64,000 nucleotides of DNA, taken from NCBI GenBank assembly GCA_000827205.1, contig KN832561.1, positions 1,248,281 to 1,312,280 on the forward strand, in the 5' to 3' direction. Within the stretch, counting starts at the first letter, position 1, and every line of letters begins with the position of its first letter. This document shows positions 28,338-51,709 of this stretch, piece after piece. Origin of the DNA: Plicaturopsis crispa FD-325 SS-3. Its lineage: Eukaryota > Basidiomycota > Agaricomycetes > Amylocorticiales > Amylocorticiaceae. The notes under the pieces are model-generated. The model saw nothing but the letters and a program-made list of their open reading frames with translations, did not search any database and was not told the DNA's origin. The position numbers and the translations under genes are program-made.

Positions 28338-29138
28338 TCACACCACAGCTGCGTATTTCTCTACGCTCTCCAAAAGCGCCGCCCACCTCCCGCCGTGCCA
28401 TGTCGCCATAACGCCCCACTCCTCCGGCACCACCAAGCTAAACCACTTCACCCACGACGCGATCGTAATATCCGCATACGTCAGCTCCTCCCCCTCCACC
28501 CAAGGACCCCCGCTCTCCCTCAACCACCCATCCACCTTATCGAACCCCGCCTTCACCTGCACCATGCGCTTCGCCCTCAGCTCGCTGCCCGCCGGCGCGA
28601 GCTCCTCCAGCCGCTTCCCGAAGCTCGCCTCGCGCGTGCGCCGGAAGAACGCCTCGCTGCGCGCGTTCAGCACCTGATTCGTGTTCGGCAGCGTGATCGC
28701 GAACCAGTCCGCCAGCGTCGCCTGGTACGCGCTCTGGAACGCGTGCTGCAGCGCGCGCGTGCGAAAGGGGAGGAGCATGGGCGTGGAGGGGTACGTCGTG
28801 TCGAGGTAGGCGGCGATTTTGATGGAGTCGGAGACGACGATGTTGGTGGAGTTGTCTTTGATTACGGGGAGGGTGTAGTAGGGGCTGCCGTCGCTTTGGA
28901 CGCCTGTGGGCTCCGCGCCGATCTCTTTGCAGAGGGGCTCGATGTCGGGGTATTCAACCCATACGGTTTCGTACGCAAGACCCTTGTAGTTCAGGGTGAA
29001 TCTGGAGATCGTGTTAGCAGCACTTCATGGATCCCTGGGTGCGAACGGGGAGGCTTGCCTGGTTTTCCAGGTGTTCGGAGACCAGCAGTTGATCGGGAGC
29101 TTGCTCGGGATGTCGTAGAAAGTGATTGGAGGAGACAT
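28338..29138 (-). CDS. glutathione S-transferase, GTE/etherase-like (copy 1)
   Basis: Glutathione transferase with an N-terminal thioredoxin-fold and a C-terminal helical domain. Exons 29059-29138 and 28338-29001 give 247 residues. The start MSPPITFYDIPSKLP is followed by the active-site region CWSPNTWKTR, typical of the fungal class related to bacterial LigE-type beta-etherases, then YKGLAYETVWVEYPDI. The glutathione-binding segment is around YTLPVIKDNST and VVSDSIKIAAYLD. The C-terminal GGRWAALLESVEKYAAVV is shared with the neighbouring copy. The single intron starts with GC (CCAG then GCAAGC) where the paralogue has GT at the same place. In wood-decay fungi this class is linked to detoxifying plant phenolics; the substrate here is unknown. 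Confidence 0.88.
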
Positions 29139-30917: not shown

Positions 30918-31736
30918 TCATACCACGGTCCTGTATTTTTCAAAGCTCTCGACGAACGCCGCCCATCTGCCCCCATTCCAGCTCGCCACCTCGTCCCATT
31001 CCTCCGGGGCGACAGTCTTGAACCACCCCACATACGCTGCCACCACCAAATCCGCGAACGACACCGTGCTCCCCATAAAGTACGGCTCGTCCGGGCCGTT
31101 CGCCTCCAGCCACCCATTGATCTTCCCCAACGTCTCCTTTATCGCCTTCATGTGCGCGACGCGCGCCGCACTGCCCGCCGGGGACAACGCCTCCAATCTG
31201 CCCCCGCCGAACTTGGGCTCCATGAACGCACGGAACGCCGCCTTGCTGCTTGGCGTGAGGTACGCATAGATGTTCGGCACCGCGACGAAGTACACCGGCA
31301 CGATCGCCGCCTCGAGCGCGTCGTAGAACGCGTTCTGTAGCGCCCGCGTGCCCGTGGGGAACAGCGCCGGCAGCGCGGGGTACGTGCTGTCGAGGTACGC
31401 CGCGATTTTGAATGACTCGGAGACGACGGCGCCGGTGGATTGGTCTTTGATGAAGGGGACCGTGTAGTGCGGGCTGCCGTCGTCGTTGAGGGAGGTGGGT
31501 GGGGCGCCGGCCTCCTTGGCGGCGCTTTGGATGTCGCCGTACTCGATCCACACGGTCTCGTAGGCGACGCCTTTGAAGTTCAGGGCGAACCTGGGAGTTG
31601 CGATGTGAGCGGCGCTGAGCAATCATGATTGGAGTGCGCGATTCTGACTGTCTTACCTAGCTTTCCACGCGTTTGGAGACCACGAGTTTCTCTCGGTCGT
31701 GCTGGGGATATCGTACAGGGTGATCTGAGGTGCCAT
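30918..31736 (-). CDS. glutathione S-transferase, GTE/etherase-like (copy 2)
   Basis: Paralogue of the preceding GST with the same two-exon layout: exon 1 (31657-31736) is 80 nt in both genes, exon 2 is 30918-31590; 250 residues. Starts MAPQITLYDIPSTTERNSW, then the active-site block SPNAWKAR and NFKGVAYETVWIEYGDI. YTVPFIKDQSTGAVVSESF and KIAAYLDSTYPALPALFPTG follow. Ends NGGRWAAFVESFEKYRTVV. The intron here has a normal GT donor (AG then GTAAGA). Tandem arrangement on the same strand indicates gene duplication. Identity to copy 1 is moderate, so the split is not recent. No targeting signal; cytosolic. Confidence 0.9.
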
Positions 31737-33300: not shown

Positions 33301-36300
33301 TCAGCGCAAATCGTCAAACCGCTTGGGATCATCCTCGCTCTCGTAAGCACTCAATAAGTCGTCATATCCCTCGTCGTCCCCCTCCTCCGCAGCGCTCTCG
33401 CGTTTCCTGTCCGTAGAAACTTTGCGCACCATCCTGACCGTTTGCGCGTCGGATACTTTGCGGACTACGCGGGCGTCCTGGCTATCTGTAGAGACTTTGC
33501 GGACCCTGCCACCCTCCTGCCCGTCATGAGAGGTCTTGCGCACGCGACCGGAATGTTGCTGCGCAGAGTCCGTGCCATCGAAGTCGAGTGCCCGGGGCGT
33601 CAACGGTGCGTCATGCGGGTCATGAGAATCCGGGGCCAACGAGTTGGGGCTGGGCGATCTCTGCTCGGGTACAGCGGTCGAATGCGAATTTGCGCGGATT
33701 CGGAGGTTCGACGGCCGCGACGCGTGCCGCTTGGTACGAAGGCGCGGGCTTTTGTTGAACGACGCGAACGATGCCGACGAGTCCGACGTGTCGTCGTCCT
33801 GATGTTTCGGCGGAGGAGTCTTCTTCCTGACAAGTTTCCTAGCCTGCGCAGGAGGCTCCAACGGAGTACCATATGACTCAAGGTCGCGCTGGGAGTCGGC
33901 ATCGACGTCTTCGACGTGGATGGTGCTCCGTCCTTGCATCGCTGCCATGACAGGCGGGGTGCGTGGCGCAGGTGGTGACGCAAGTGTAGCTGGAGAGTCC
34001 TGCCCATCAGATAGGCCCCTTCGTGGAATTGATTTGACCTCACCCTGAGGCATGTCGTAGGACGTAGCGCTCTCGCTGCTTGTACGGCGACCCGCCATAG
34101 GCGGGCTCAGCATTCCACGGTCCGATGTCGTCCCGGAAGACATGGAATCCGGTCGTCCGTAGGGCATCCGGAAATTGGGTGCCATTGGCGAGACAGATCG
34201 CCGGTTGATGGGAACGACTCTGCTGCTGGGAAGCCTGTTACTGGGGCTGTCAGAGTCCCAATCCGAGCTACCCCTCCCTCCTCTTGTCCATACCGGCTTT
34301 CCTAACGCATCGGACGGTGACAAGGACGAGATGGATGATTGCGATTCCTTGTGCATCATTGCTCGTTTGCTTCGCATGACATCGGACCATTGCTCCTGAG
34401 TAGAATGCCCCCGAGTAGAAGGCACCGGAGTGGAATTAGCAGACCTCGACAAAGCTATCGAACGGCTTGGGGTATGCAAGGCTCCCGCCGTCCCGAGCAG
34501 TAAGGGTCTGGGGCCGGACTTGGGCGTAGGTGTCGCCGCTACAGGCGCAGGCAGATGCAGGCCTTGGAAGGAAGCCAGCGACTCCCTCGCTTTGCGCATC
34601 AAGCCACTGTCTGACTGGGGTGAGCTTTTAGGACTTTCTGGACTTGTCGGCGAGAAAGATCCAGGGCCATTGCGAGGCGGAGGCATCATGCTATCGCGGG
34701 GAGGACGGAAGAAGGCCGGACGGGCAGGCGGTGAATACGCAGCACTGCGATCAACTCCGGGCATCGACCCTCTCCGTCCTTCGTCGAGTCTAGGGGGCTG
34801 CCAGGCATTGACGGAGCCACTTCGCGTCTTTCCAAATCCACCGTCTTGTGTAGAAGACGCATCTTGTGGGCTCGGGCTGGTTGCACCTCCACGCACACTC
34901 CATGCCATCGCTTTTGCACGCCAGTTACTGCTGACTTTCGCAAGGGTCGCAGCCGTGTCAGAGTCCTTCAGCTTGTTGGTATAACTCCAGAGGGCTGCCG
35001 ATGCTTGGAGGCTAGGACTAGCATGAGGAGGAGCATCATCTATTTCGCTAGGTGGCGGCGGCAAGGGAGGGAGGCGAGCAGCAGGGGAACGCGGAGATGG
35101 TGTCAGCGGTGTTAGTGGTGACGGAGGCGCATCCATTGCACTTTGGTTGGTCATGCCTCTCCATACCGTGTTCGCAAACCGCGCACTCAGCCCAGGGGAT
35201 GCAGAGCCGTTAGGTTTGGATCTCTCGGTCTCGGTTTCGTTTCCATCGTCAGGTGGGTCATCGCTCTCCGGCTCCTCCTCGGAATCCTCTGGGGATGAGT
35301 CGGGGTCGTCTTGCGAGACTTGGTTGGTGAACCCCTTCCACATTGTCGTTGCAAGTCGGGCGCCCAAACTCAGGCTCTCAGCCTTCTGGGTCTTCGTCTC
35401 GTCCTCTCTACGGCGCGCTAGATCGGAAGCCGTCTGTAGGATCCTGTCGATTCCACCGGCGGCTTCGACCGGATAGAGCTGCAGCAGGGACATGCCCTCG
35501 AGGAAAGCATCGCCCAGCTCCCATGGTCGCAAAGGCGACGGGGGAGGCACTGTGGTGTTCTCGTCGACCCAAAGGCCCGGAGACCTGCGTCCAGGTTTGC
35601 CTAACCGGAAAAGAGGTACCCGTGCACGAATGAGGAGACTCGTGCAGATGTCTAGGAGGTGCTCCAGCTTGGGGTTCGAGTCGCGCTCTCTCATCGGATA
35701 CGAGAATAACGCATCCCAGACCATGAACACCGACGATAACGGTAAGGTTTGTGTGAGTAGAGGAGCCAACCAGCGGCTGAAGCACGATAAGTAGATACCG
35801 GAGAATACGAAATGGACTAACTTACTATGAATAGTGCGGTAGCGCAGGATCCAGTCCCTTCGCATGCTAGTTACGCGCAATTAGCCCATGGTCGCATGCA
35901 CAGTCCATAGAACGTACAAGGTTCTCTGATAAGTCTTGATCTGCCCAAGCAAGTCTCTCACCGAGTTTTCGCATCCACAAATTGCTACCTTCCTCTTCTT
36001 CTAATTCCGCAAACTCGCCGACTATCGCCTCGAATAACCAGAAGGTGTCCGCCTCTGCATGGGCAAGATCTTGTTGCTCGATTTCCTGGACCATTACGGA
36101 GTATAAAGGCACAAGCAGCGACGGTACATGAGGTGAGTGGTGAGCCGGATTCAGGCATGAATGTATGTAGAGAAGGCGCAGCAGTGCCGAGCTGTGCTTC
36201 GGGTGACCGCTTGGGGATGTCCATGCTCTTGAGGGAAGCAGGGTGGTCGGTGCGCCAGGTCGCCGACCCGCAAAGGACTCGGGTTCTGAGAGAGATATCG

Positions 36301-37800
36301 CAGGAATGCCTGTGCTTTCGGCATCGTCAGACTCCAGTCGAATTTCTGGCGTGGCGTTAGAAGAGGCAGCATGGCGCTGGTCTAGGATATGGATCATCCG
36401 TATGCGAGCATCAAGGTTGCTTGCGCATGCGATCTTGATGTCTTCCGGCGCGGAATCATCCAATGGGCAGAGAGGGTTCGGTTCGGGCTCTTCTCCAAGT
36501 CCACCGAAAAGGCTATGAGGAACCCGGGTGAGCTGGTTGTACGCATCCATTAACGATCCGTCCGCGGTAGCTAGAGGCACTGCTGGAGGAGGAAGGTTTG
36601 AATATGTTTCTAGAAGCCGCCGTATGAGGTCCTGCATTCGTTGGTAAGTTGGGCATTCAACCCTTAGAGACAGTCGGGAAACGCACATAATAGCTCTCCC
36701 GTTGCTTGGATATCTCCTTTTCCCATGAGGCTTTGATTACAGGAAGCATCCCGAAAAATAACCTCAAAGGCACGCTGTAAGCAAGTAACACCCTAACTAA
36801 GTTAAAGCAGGCTCACTTCCATACACGGGGACGAATCCAAGGAGGATCATCCGGGATGCCTGAGTGTGTTCATCAAGACACTTCACGACCAGGGAGACAG
36901 AATACTCACCGTTTGAGCATAGTTTTCGTAGTCGAGGAAGATCGACAACAGGTGACGACGCAGGGTCCAAGGCTTCTGACAGTGCATTCAATCTGTGTGA
37001 GAAAAGCTCAACGACAAGGACTTCTTCGTTTAACAGGAAGCACGGCGAACATGTCTTGTGGCCTGAGTTCAGGGGTCCATTTCACTCCATACGACGTCGC
37101 TACGGTGGAAATATAGTCATTGAGTCTGGCGGCAGATATTGGGGGTGCGGACAATGCTTTCAGCACCTAGATAGACGGATGAGCACGCGATCGATCCCCG
37201 TCGACTGTACTCACGCGAGAAGACACATAGTTGTCGCGGTTTCCAATGGCTGAACGCGCAAAGTCTGGTCCCAAGTATTGGATAAGAAATTCGCGAACAA
37301 TATTTAGATCTTCGCGACAATATAAGTAAGCCATGCGCCGATGAGTGGTGACATCCTGCGCACCTTTCGACTCCGTCTGAGGGGCAGCATAAATAATACT
37401 GGCGGCTGCCTCGGCGACGATAGGACTAGGCGTAGTCCTGTAGCACAGGCGTCAGAAGGAGCTGCTAAGACTAGCGCGCGCTGAACTCACCGTTGTTCTA
37501 GTTCATGGAAATGCTCCAGAATAACACCCACGTGCATCTCCAGTACCTCCAATAGATCACCCATAGCATCGTCCTGTATGAGATTCTGCGCTTTCGCCCG
37601 CGCTAGCCCGACATTTCCTTGCTGTAGCAGCGTCGCGATATCCCTGCGCGTGACTTGTCCTGTTGAATCCTTCCGTTCCTGTAGTTGGCCGAGCCGCAGC
37701 GCGGTGAGCCGTAGCTGGCCCTGCAACATCGTTCAGACATGGCAATTGCTGAAGAGAAGGCGGCGCGAACCTTGGCATTGGTAGCATCCCAACTGGCCAT
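33301..37800 (-). CDS. IST1-domain / TBC1D13-like RabGAP fusion protein
   Basis: First exons 37771-37800, 37491-37720, 37215-37437 and 37051-37166 encode an IST1 domain, the ESCRT-III partner that regulates Vps4 (RLGQLQERKDSTGQVTRRDI, LEVLEMHVGVILEHF, AAASIIYAAPQ, FLIQYLGPDF, DYISTVATSYGVKWTPEL). Next exons 36910-36992 and 36815ish-36859 open a TBC domain (LRKLCSNGIPDDPPWIRPRVW) that aligns through its length with TBC1D13: ASWEKEISKQRESYY, LAHAEADTFWLFEAIV, HYSYRWLAPLLTQTL, VFMVWDALFSYP. The TBC-side reading frame has no ATG before the conserved region and starts right at an acceptor, and the IST1 exon joins it in frame through a 58-nt intron (36993-37050). Hence one gene. A tail of about 600 residues, Ser/Pro-rich, ends with VRKVS repeats. 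The Gln finger of the GAP is missing. The GTTCGC donors at 37770 and 37050 are not optimal. Confidence 0.75.
36993..37050 (-). other. 58-nt intron joining the IST1 and TBC exons
   Basis: Donor GTTCGC after phase 2, acceptor CACACAG. Removing it changes ...DAT into codon ATA and continues as LNALSEALDPASSP in the TBC frame. Unspliced, the IST1 frame would stop at 37008 after VKRRSPCR. The same donor hexamer is used by the gene's first intron. Confidence 0.7.
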
Positions 37801-38263: not shown

Positions 38264-39350
38264 CTAATACCATGGTGGCAGCTGTCGAGTCGTAGCAGTG
38301 CTTCGTCTACTATTATCAGGTCTGCTGCCCGAATTTCGGTGCTCCTCACGGAGGAGTCCATGCTGTGAGCTGGCGCGAGACGAGTAGGAGCGGTCTTCCA
38401 CAGCCGGCGTCGTAGGCCACTGCGCCGTCGAGCCGCTCTGAGCTCTGCCATTTGGGGTGGTGGGCCATTGGGCGGTCGAGCCGCTGCGACTTCTCTCGCC
38501 CATTTCGGGTTTCATGATAGGGATGTGTGATTGTCGGCCCAGTGCAGCTTCTGGGTCGGGGGTTGGTGGAAGCCGTGACCGGCGATATACCATAACGGCG
38601 AGGCATACAGCGTATGCGATGACTGCATGCACGAGGGAGTCAGCGTACAGAACAGAGGACAAAGCGTACGCCGAACTGACGGAATAGAGGTACTACCCAG
38701 CTGGCCATGAGGATATAGAAGAGCATGAGTCGGCAGACGCCCTCTTGATCGGCGGCTGAAAGAGGCAAAGGGTGAGCGGCTGAATTAGACGCAGCAGTTA
38801 CGACGTACTTTGTGTCGGGCAAGAAAAACGGGGGTACCAGAAAGCGAAGGTTCCTGCAGTGCCTGTCCAGTCGTGTGAGTGATTAGGAGGGCATATAACA
38901 TTGGAGATGGCTACTGACCTATGTGTATCGTGAGCAGGAAGAGGACGCGTGCCGCATCTAGAAACGGCCTGAATTTGCAGAGGATTCTGAAACAGATAGT
39001 CAGTCAACTGGTATATCAGATTTAGAGATAACGCACAAGACAGGCAGCATGACAAGTGTGATAGCATTAACGAGACAGAGAACGACGACCAGTGCGCCTG
39101 TCGGTAGAATCGTGACTTTAGCCTTAAGCATCCTCTACTCAGGATGATGGTACTCACGTTCAGACGTGGAAGACGTGTTCCACAGGAAGAATAATTCTAT
39201 GCTCAGCAGAATGACCCATAGCAAGCTAATGAATGAGATGATGGCTGCACATATCCCTCGGTCAGAAAGGATTGCACTTATAAGATGGCTCGACCACGTA
39301 CAGAATGCCACGGCCCTAAGTTTCATGTATACGGGAAAATATTCCGCCAT
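38264..39350 (-). CDS. small multi-TM membrane protein, paralogue A
   Basis: Unknown function. Spliced model starts MAEYFPVYMKLRAVAF and has about six exons with four hydrophobic segments: IISFISLLWVILLSIELFF; ALVVVLCLVNAITLVMLPVL; ARVLFLLTIHIGTAGTFAFW; and LMLFYILMASW..IAYAVCLAVMVY. A motif DQEGVC lies just before the last helix. A soluble C-terminus of about 110 residues is Ser/Arg-rich and contains a duplicated SGSTAQWPTTP unit, ending STATTRQLPPWY. The last intron (GTCAGT...ATGCAG, 58 nt) was chosen because the nearer frame stops. The layout (short N-terminus, four helices, polar tail) is MARVEL-like, but I do not recognise a named family. Shares DQE-GVC and helix 4 features with the gene at 40750-42049. 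Confidence 0.65.
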
Positions 39351-49265: not shown

Positions 49266-51709
49266 ATGGCCACTGAGAGCTTTGGCTTCCAGGCTGAGAT
49301 CAGTCAATTGCTTGACTTGATTATCAGTATGTCTTTTATCTACATTGCATTTGCGCTCGCGTACTGACGACGATCATAGACACCTTCTACTCCAACAAGG
49401 AGATTTTCCTTCGTGAACTCATCTCGAACGGATCCGATGCCCTCGACAAAATCCGATATGCATCCCTCACCGACCCCTCCGCTCTCGACACCGAGAAGGA
49501 GCTCTACATCCGCATCACCCCCGACAAAGAGAACAAAATTCTCTCCATCCGGGATACTGGTGTCGGTATGACCAAGGCCGACATGGTGAACAACCTCGGT
49601 ACGATTGCCAAGTCCGGGACAAAGGTACATTTTGCGGCGTCCATACTTTAATCCTTCCTAATCTAATCGACTATCACCTATCTCAGGGCTTCATGGAAGC
49701 GCTTAGCTCCGGTGCTGATATCTCCATGATTGGGCAATTCGGTGTCGGTTTCTACTCCGCATACCTTGTTGCCGACCGCGTGCAGGTCATCTCAAAACAC
49801 AACGACGACGAGCAGTACATCTGGGAGTCGGCTGCCGGTGGAACCTTCACCATCACACCCGACACCGTCAACCCCCCTCTTGGCCGTGGTACCGACATCC
49901 GCCTCTACCTTAAGGAGGACCAGCTCGAGTACCTTGAGGAGAAGAAGATCAAGGACATCGTCAAGAAGCACTCTGAGTTCATCTCGTACCCCATCCAACT
50001 TGCAGTGACCAAGGAGGTCGAGAAGGTACGTGTTTGCCTCTTCAAGCGTAGACAATCAGGGCTCACGCTTTTCTGTTGTACAGGAGGTTGAGGACGACGA
50101 GGCTGTCGAGGAGGAGGAGTCCGAGGACAAGCCCAAGATCGAGGAGGTCGACGACGAGGACAAGCCCAAAAAGACCAAGAAGATCAAGGAGTCCGAGACG
50201 ACCAACGAGGAGCTCAACAAGACGAAGCCTATATGGACACGCAATCCCTCGGAAATCACCACCGAGGAGTACGCTGCATTCTACAAGTCGTTGTCGAACG
50301 ACTGGGAAGACCACCTTGCCGTCAAGCACTTCTCCGTTGAGGGTCAGCTTGAGTTCAAGGCCATCCTCTACATTCCCAAACGGTACGTCGATCTTTCTCT
50401 GATATGTTTTTGCGCGTACTCACGCTTCCCTGCAGTGCCCCCTTCGACCTCTTCGAGACCAAGAAGAAGCGCAACAACATCAAGCTCTATGTCCGCCGTG
50501 TCTTCATCATGGACGACTGCGAGGACCTCATCCCCGAGTACCTCAACTTCGTCAAGGGTATCGTCGACTCCGAGGATCTCCCCCTCAACATCTCGCGTGA
50601 GACCCTCCAGCAGAACAAGATTCTCAAGGTCATCCGCAAGAACATCGTCAAGAAGTCCATGGACCTCATCAGCGAGATCGCTGAGGACAAGGACAACTTC
50701 GCGAAGTTCTACGAGGCGTTCGGCAAGAACTTGAAGCTCGGTATCCACGAGGACGCCCAGAACCGCAGCAAGCTCGCTGAGTTCCTCCGCTTCTACTCGA
50801 CCAAGTCGACAGAGGAGCAGGTGTCGCTCAAGGGTAAGCGCGTTTCTTGTTTTGACATTTTTTGTATCATGTGCTCATCCAGCTGCTCGTAGACTACATC
50901 ACCCGCATGCCCGAGGTCCAGAAGTCCATCTACTACCTCACCGGTGAATCCCTCGCCGCCGTCCGCGACTCGCCTTTCCTTGAGGTCCTCAAGAAGAAGG
51001 GCTTCGAGGTCCTTCTCCTCGTCGACCCCATCGACGAGTACGCCATCACCCAGCTCAAGGAGTTCGATGGCAAGAAGCTCGTCTGCGTGTCGAAGGAGGG
51101 TCTTGAGCTCGAGGAGACTGAGGAGGAGAAGGCTGAGCGCGAGCGGGAGAACGCTGAGTTCGCTGAGCTCTGCACTGTCACCAAGGACGCCCTCGGTGAC
51201 AAGGTCGAGAAGGTTGTTGTCTCCAACCGTATCACCGACTCCCCTTGTGTCCTCGTCACCGGCCAATTCGGCTGGTCGTCGAACATGGTGCGTGTTTTCT
51301 GTACTCATCTTTATGCCTACGCGATTATTAACGACGTCTTTGTCTACAGGAGCGTATCATGAAGGCGCAGGCCCTCCGTGACTCGTCGATGTCGTCTTAC
51401 ATGGCATCGAAGAAGACTCTCGAGCTCAACCCCCACAACCCCATCGTCAAGGAGTTGAAGCGGAAAGTCGCTGAGGACAAGGCCGACAAGTCCGTCCGCG
51501 ACCTGACCTACCTCCTCTTCGAGACCGCACTCCTCACCTCCGGCTTCGCCCTCGACGAGCCCACGTCGTTCGCCAAGCGCATCCACCGGATGATCTCGCT
51601 CGGCCTCGACGTCGACGAGGATGAGGAGGACGCACCCGCCGCGGCGTCGGACGACGCGCCCCCACCACTGGAAGCCGCATCCGCGTCCGCGATGGAGGAG
51701 ATCGACTAA
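49266..51709 (+). CDS. HSP90: cytosolic heat shock protein 90
   Basis: ATP-dependent chaperone. Exons 49266-49326, 49380-49624, 49687-50025, 50084-50382, 50436-50833, 50893-51287, 51350-51709; 698 residues, the usual length. The N-terminal GHKL ATPase shows [38 protein letters not shown] and [16 protein letters not shown] charged linker ([19 protein letters not shown]) follows, then the middle domain with [20 protein letters not shown] and the catalytic arginine loop [14 protein letters not shown], then the dimerisation domain. It ends SAMEEID; the family's TPR-binding end is normally MEEVD. No ER or mitochondrial signal. Confidence 0.98.

Follow-up and report, generated by a model that had tools for sequence, protein, structure and literature searches.

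A candidate gene joining IST1 to a divergent TBC domain in Plicaturopsis crispa

We analysed a window of 64,000 nucleotides (nt) from the genome of the basidiomycete Plicaturopsis crispa FD-325 SS-3 (contig KN832561.1; C8:1248281-1312280), whose minus strand carries, within 37800-33301, coding regions for an IST1 domain and for a TBC (Tre-2/Bub2/Cdc16) domain. The locus probably forms one gene, in which IST1 (residues ~1-181) is followed by a divergent TBC domain (~182-555) and a long tail, and whose product would be an ESCRT-III/pseudo-TBC scaffold. A single fused gene had been proposed in a sequence-only reading of the window; this structure turned out to score best and the proposed splice to rank first among 11 joins, in both cases on genomic signals, from which we infer that the splice is used. 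That the fusion is made at all, whether as the sole or as an alternative product of the locus, we consider quite likely; given the fusion, a role as a scaffold is a more tentative proposal, with chances somewhat below even.

Two domains in one predicted frame

The final, hand-corrected model spans 37800-33301 on the minus strand with 11 exons and 10 introns and reads as a single frame of 1325 amino acids (Table 1). Run on the first 653 residues of this model, Pfam finds Ist1 (147.5 bits) and then RabGAP-TBC (40.0 bits) in the one frame, both above the Pfam cut-offs. The Ist1 domain is complete (PF03398 positions 1-164 of 164; E 4.3e-43; residues 10-172), and the PDB matches of the IST1 part are human IST1 and the yeast increased sodium tolerance protein 1. 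The RabGAP-TBC match (PF00566; E 4.5e-10; cut-off 25.2 bits) covers residues 394-526 and profile positions 68-193 of 216.

Searches of the organism's own genome covered 33.2 Mb in 49 contigs. In six frames and at E values up to 0.001, Ist1 matches (4 in total) fell only at the window locus and at a second site, C2. The C2 IST1 gene (L017 2081-3329) encodes 272 amino acids in a hand-built model, reaches 217.3 bits against Ist1 and has a Pro-rich tail ending with DDFDALAKRFAALKKR, the MIT-interacting motif MIM1; searched against the PDB up to E 10, this tail matches three entries only, each an IST1 peptide, with weak E values of 0.13-0.31. The four introns within the IST1 domain of the window gene correspond to introns of the hand-built C2 model in phase and aligned position, and the C2 gene has extra introns absent from the window copy. 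Because the introns match in this way, the two genes can be taken to stem from duplication of one gene, with the C2 gene as the canonical IST1 that keeps the MIM1 tail and the window copy as a second IST1 paralogue. The C2 gene also shows an 11-nt exon and a GTTTCG donor.

The TBC part, labelled TBC1D13-like in the sequence-only reading, has TBC1D22A/B and Gyp1 as its best matches among solved sequences, and TBC1D13 is not among the listed PDB matches. Its N-terminal homology with Gyp1 and TBC1D22 begins about a dozen residues past the junction. Against three TBC sequences of the same genome the hhalign probability was 95.3, and no second copy of this TBC part was found in that genome at E 0.001 (4 matches, all at the window locus).

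Of the two residues with which TBC proteins normally inactivate Rabs, one is missing. The glutamine finger YxQ is absent from the window protein: the stretch from NPA to PLY, which reads NPAHHSPHVPSLLVPLY, contains neither glutamine nor glycine nor methionine, and HHSPHVPSLLVPLY stands where the three sequences of the hhalign comparison have GYxQG. YxQ is present in four of the five distinct TBC models from this genome (L007/L016, L010/L014 and L015, with YxQG; L008, with YCQAM); the fifth, L005, has no YxQ at this place, but the splicing of that stretch is uncertain. The list of TBC matches comprised 19 pieces; the loci modelled (L005 to L016) yielded these five distinct models and some TBC loci gave none, so that the tally of intact fingers refers to part of the family. 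No clear motif was seen for the arginine finger (IxxDxxR); by eye, a possible relic is AYNQLTRVPHSLF (QLTRVPHSLF), with D changed to Q. Aligning the TBC part by MAFFT to four TBC models from the same genome gave too poor a result for placing the arginine finger, and this alignment was set aside. Without the glutamine finger, the TBC half would more probably serve as a connector than switch Rabs off. The sequence-only reading had further suggested that the protein couples ESCRT-III/Vps4 regulation to Rab inactivation, an idea that finds no support in a TBC domain without YxQ.

The junction and its alternatives

The last IST1 exon ends in phase 2 before the donor GTTCGC, and the acceptor ...CTCACACAG, which ends at 36993, closes a 58-nt intron that keeps a single frame, with ELRPQD joined to ILNALSEALDP in the spliced product. 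We reproduced these coordinates as first read from the sequence, together with the stop codon (ending at 37008) that IST1 would meet alone; unspliced, the IST1 frame acquires a 14-codon ending and totals 195 amino acids. For scoring, a gene finder was trained on 264 kb of the same genome (the window together with 20 further 10-kb stretches; 350 introns) and, with the locus left out, in three settings (340, 316 and 299 introns). The total splice score of the fusion intron corresponds to percentiles 0.303, 0.297 and 0.241 among the introns of these three settings, and in a locus-left-out model it heads the 11 in-frame IST1-to-TBC joins with 4.42, the other ten scoring -1.07 or less. Intron 1 has GTTCGC as its donor too; as its place coincides with that of the first intron in the paralogue, the window gene probably does use this donor.

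The sequence beyond the donor was scored as well. Read as IST1 coding, the 40 nt at 37050-37011 score -5.06, a value reached or undercut in 4 of 91 IST1 and 8 of 644 TBC sliding windows (in-frame, overlapping, 40 nt, 5-nt steps; pre-correction model), and the tail of IST1 alone looks non-coding. A comparison with predicted gene ends (as low in 0/55, 0/60 and 0/63) was discarded as biased, the same model having chosen those ends. The spacer between the IST1-alone stop and the TBC coding sequence (36992) would measure 15 nt; the 25 same-strand gaps between predicted genes have a minimum of 46 nt and a median of 802 nt.

Several observations weigh against the fusion. The gap figures come from a gene finder that can run adjacent genes together, and over all 49 neighbouring predicted pairs the smallest gap is -4. 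The donor GTTCGC occurs in none of the introns of the locus-left-out runs (0/340, 0/316 and 0/299) and, with the window included, in 2 of 350, one of which is the fusion intron itself. The only CTNAY branch motif of the fusion intron lies 5 nt from the acceptor, a position outside the 8-30 nt found for 207 of the 229 introns bearing such a motif; CTNAY is absent from 70 of 299 introns and also from two other introns of the window gene. Among 59 control gene 3' ends, 5 offer a donor in compatible phase that scores at least as well and would form an intron of 38-80 nt, and the phase match alone is therefore weak. Trained without the locus, the gene finder breaks it into pieces, and the fusion intron appears in none of the three settings. 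In all three it recovers the first IST1 exons and no exon between 36992 and 35826, which makes these runs uninformative rather than contrary. The run in which the fusion intron was used had the locus in training and merged the upstream gene. We accordingly rejected the ab initio gene finder as evidence in either direction, as it merges the upstream membrane gene with the locus in and misses the TBC exons with the locus out. Inspection by eye shows a TTGAG about 15 nt upstream of the fusion acceptor, a possible branch-point substitute.

Two separate genes form the strongest alternative, which we regard as improbable: a short IST1 of 195 amino acids stopping at 37008, plus a TBC gene with a minute first exon that lies in or upstream of IST1 and is spliced to 36993. 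As originally described, an in-frame stop just above 37081 closes the TBC frame, and from there to the conserved TBC start no ATG occurs. The step from the missing ATG to a single gene is a good argument but not an airtight one, since a separate TBC gene needs only a very short first exon; the Gyp1/TBC1D22-like part starts near the junction, so few first-exon codons would be missing. We enumerated 33 first-exon candidates (single first exons, introns up to 260 nt, default penalty on introns above 150 nt; locus included in training); under the same model the fusion scored 4.6 and the best candidate outside the IST1 frame -2.2. The best candidates on splice signals were the ATG at 37052 (0.2, 0.1) and then that at 37334 (-1.3), both in the IST1 frame. 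The best two-gene alternative is the ATG at 37228, whose donor at 37214 (GTGAGT, 4.9) with the acceptor at 36993 (4.9) beats the fusion on raw splice scores, but it needs a 222-nt intron, and its total of -2.2 includes the default length penalty. A first exon further upstream than 260-nt introns allow would fall outside this enumeration. Two genes would moreover place a promoter inside IST1, and would leave an IST1 with the non-coding-like tail described above and without the MIM1 tail.

Somewhat less probable again is alternative splicing, by which retention of the intron would give the short IST1 and its removal the fusion. The rare donor and the poor branch-point geometry would favour such partial use, and retention supplies the 14-codon ending; on the other side, intron retention in fungi is often non-productive. 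In one mushroom, 25.2% of transcribed loci are alternatively spliced and 7.9% of loci lie in read-through transcripts, according to PMC4503453. The same paper describes read-through transcripts with two to four open reading frames in a mushroom-forming fungus. A bicistronic RNA with two independently translated frames is nevertheless very improbable at the window locus: no ATG precedes the conserved start of the downstream frame, and the reading frames in that paper are separated on average by 364 nt that contain stops in every frame.

C-terminal tail, gene model and neighbouring genes

In the single-gene model the TBC domain is followed by a tail whose composition (16% Ser and 12% Pro in the final 685 residues) suggests that it is probably disordered; it has six PDB matches, none of them IST1. 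The protein ends in RFDDLR (C-terminus SEDDPKRFDDLR), which belongs to the TBC polypeptide with or without the fusion and is without the first leucine of human MIM1. By composition, a motif of the form R[FLIM]xxL[KR] would fall within the last 15 residues with a probability of ~0.001, and none of 71 predicted proteins shows one; both figures apply to a motif noticed post hoc. RFDDLR may be a weak MIT-binding motif that replaces the lost MIM1. Elsewhere in the tail, WKGFTNQ, WRGMTNQ and WSYTNK recur at residues 647, 706 and 764, perhaps as a short binding motif, and RK[VT]S, which resembles a kinase site, occurs four times close to the C-terminus (residues 1247-1288; within 33301-33600).

A first gene model of 1347 amino acids was dropped when alignment with the paralogue showed the intron 37363-37310 and the TBC alignment showed the acceptor at 36763. 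Excising the intron, which has a counterpart at the same aligned position and phase in the C2 gene, lifts the Ist1 match from 129.7 to 147.5 bits; it was called in two of the three locus-left-out gene-finder runs and carries CTNAY motifs at 13 and 17 nt. The acceptor at 36763 restores VWKLFFGMLP, raises the Pfam TBC match from 36.4 to 40.0 bits and improves the top PDB TBC match from 1.7e-5 (TBC1D22B) to 2.2e-8 (TBC1D22A); the own splice score of the corrected intron (36763-36816) is low, at 1.77. Two features of these introns stand on their own. Retention of 37310-37363 preserves the frame and adds 18 residues, so that two protein forms are possible; and the intron 36763-36816 passes over a near AG (ACAG ending at 36775) right after the branch motif CTTAC and uses a GAG acceptor 12 nt further on.

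Table 1. Predicted features of the IST1-TBC locus, in order of transcription (positions in the window)
Feature	Position	Strand	Basis or remark
Exon 1, ATG at 37800, MASWDATNAK	37771..37800	-	followed, after residue 10, by a phase-0 intron shared with the C2 IST1 paralogue
Intron 1, 50 nt, donor GTTCGC	37721..37770	-	place and phase of the paralogue's first intron
Exon 2, IST1 part	37491..37720	-	Pfam Ist1
Exon 3, IST1 part	37364..37437	-	gene model and paralogue alignment
Intron 3, 54 nt, stop-free, phase 1	37310..37363	-	paralogue intron, gain in Ist1 score, gene finder
Exon 4, IST1 part	37215..37309	-	gene model and paralogue alignment
Exon 5, last of IST1, end ...WTPELRPQD in phase 2	37051..37166	-	gene model and paralogue alignment
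Candidate fusion intron GTTCGC...CACACAG, 58 nt, phase 2	36993..37050	-	top of 11 in-frame joins
Alternative IST1-only end MFAVLPVKRRSPCR-stop when the intron is retained	37008..37050	-	reading frame; low coding score
Exon 6, TBC part begins, LNALSEALDPASSPVVDLPRLRKLCSNG	36910..36992	-	aligns from ~SSPVVDL with the TBC N-terminus of TBC1D22 and Gyp1
Exon 7, IPDDPPWIRPRVW	36817..36859	-	TBC alignment
Exon 8, KLFFGMLP...	36687..36762	-	acceptor moved from 36775 to 36763; TBC alignment and Pfam
Exon 9, TBC core with NPAHHSPHVPSLLVPLY (no glutamine finger) and HAEADTFWLF	35918..36631	-	alignment, gene model
Exon 10, TBC part	35826..35866	-	gene model
Exon 11, TBC end, then Ser/Pro-rich tail, C-terminus SEDDPKRFDDLR	33301..35776	-	stop codon ends at 33301

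Upstream of the locus, at 38264-39326 on the minus strand, lies a gene for a hydrophobic, probably multi-membrane-spanning protein, which the ab initio model merged with IST1. Two similar, adjacent genes are predicted at 28338-29138 and 30918-31736 (minus strand), which we take to be glutathione S-transferase-like, and a further one at 49266-51709 (plus strand), presumably HSP90-like by its N-terminus.

Possible role and meaning

If the locus is read as one gene, the IST1 domain would place the protein on ESCRT-III at endosomes, where it would bind ESCRT-III partners; the TBC half, with the usual two-finger catalysis missing, would bind a Rab or some other partner; the tail would contribute short motifs and possible phosphorylation sites. 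ESCRT-III tails, that of IST1 among them, recruit MIT-domain proteins, as stated in PMC4475061. One could go further and suppose that the lineage turned a duplicate IST1 into a protein that inserts into ESCRT-III/CHMP1-type filaments, one that carries a Rab-binding, catalytically crippled TBC domain and a new C-terminal MIT-binding motif and so links Rab identity with scission; this extension is speculative, and we think it rather unlikely to hold in full.

Both halves belong to known families. Like other IST1 proteins (PF03398), the window protein has a complete Ist1 domain; unlike them, it would carry a TBC domain and another tail in place of the C-terminal tail and MIM1. Its TBC part shares with the TBC RabGAPs the segments GIP...RPxVWKL..G.LP, EADTFW and RW..LL...WD, which align with TBC1D22A/B and Gyp1, and departs from them in being without YxQ, in an arginine finger that is not confidently recognisable, and in its predicted connection to IST1. 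The polycistronic mushroom transcripts of PMC4503453 are comparable insofar as adjacent same-strand coding regions could share a transcript, whereas the window locus has a phase-compatible joining intron with hardly any spacer and lacks a second start codon.

IST1 with TBC would be a new domain combination of known families. We found no paper on such a fusion in the open-licence literature, and it may already stand in annotation databases. Relatives were likewise absent from viral contigs (7 pattern-matching stretches in one search, no match in another) and prokaryotic contigs (27 stretches), a result that such collections lead one to expect and that is uninformative on other fungi.

ESCRT-III scission and changes of Rab identity share endosomes, but to our knowledge separate proteins coordinate them. 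If the fusion is real, one polypeptide with an ESCRT-III-family domain and a TBC domain would offer a directly testable link between scission and Rabs. It would also mean that a duplicated IST1 has gained a new role while the other copy retains the Vps4-binding tail, and would illustrate how a single intron can link neighbouring genes in a compact fungal genome.

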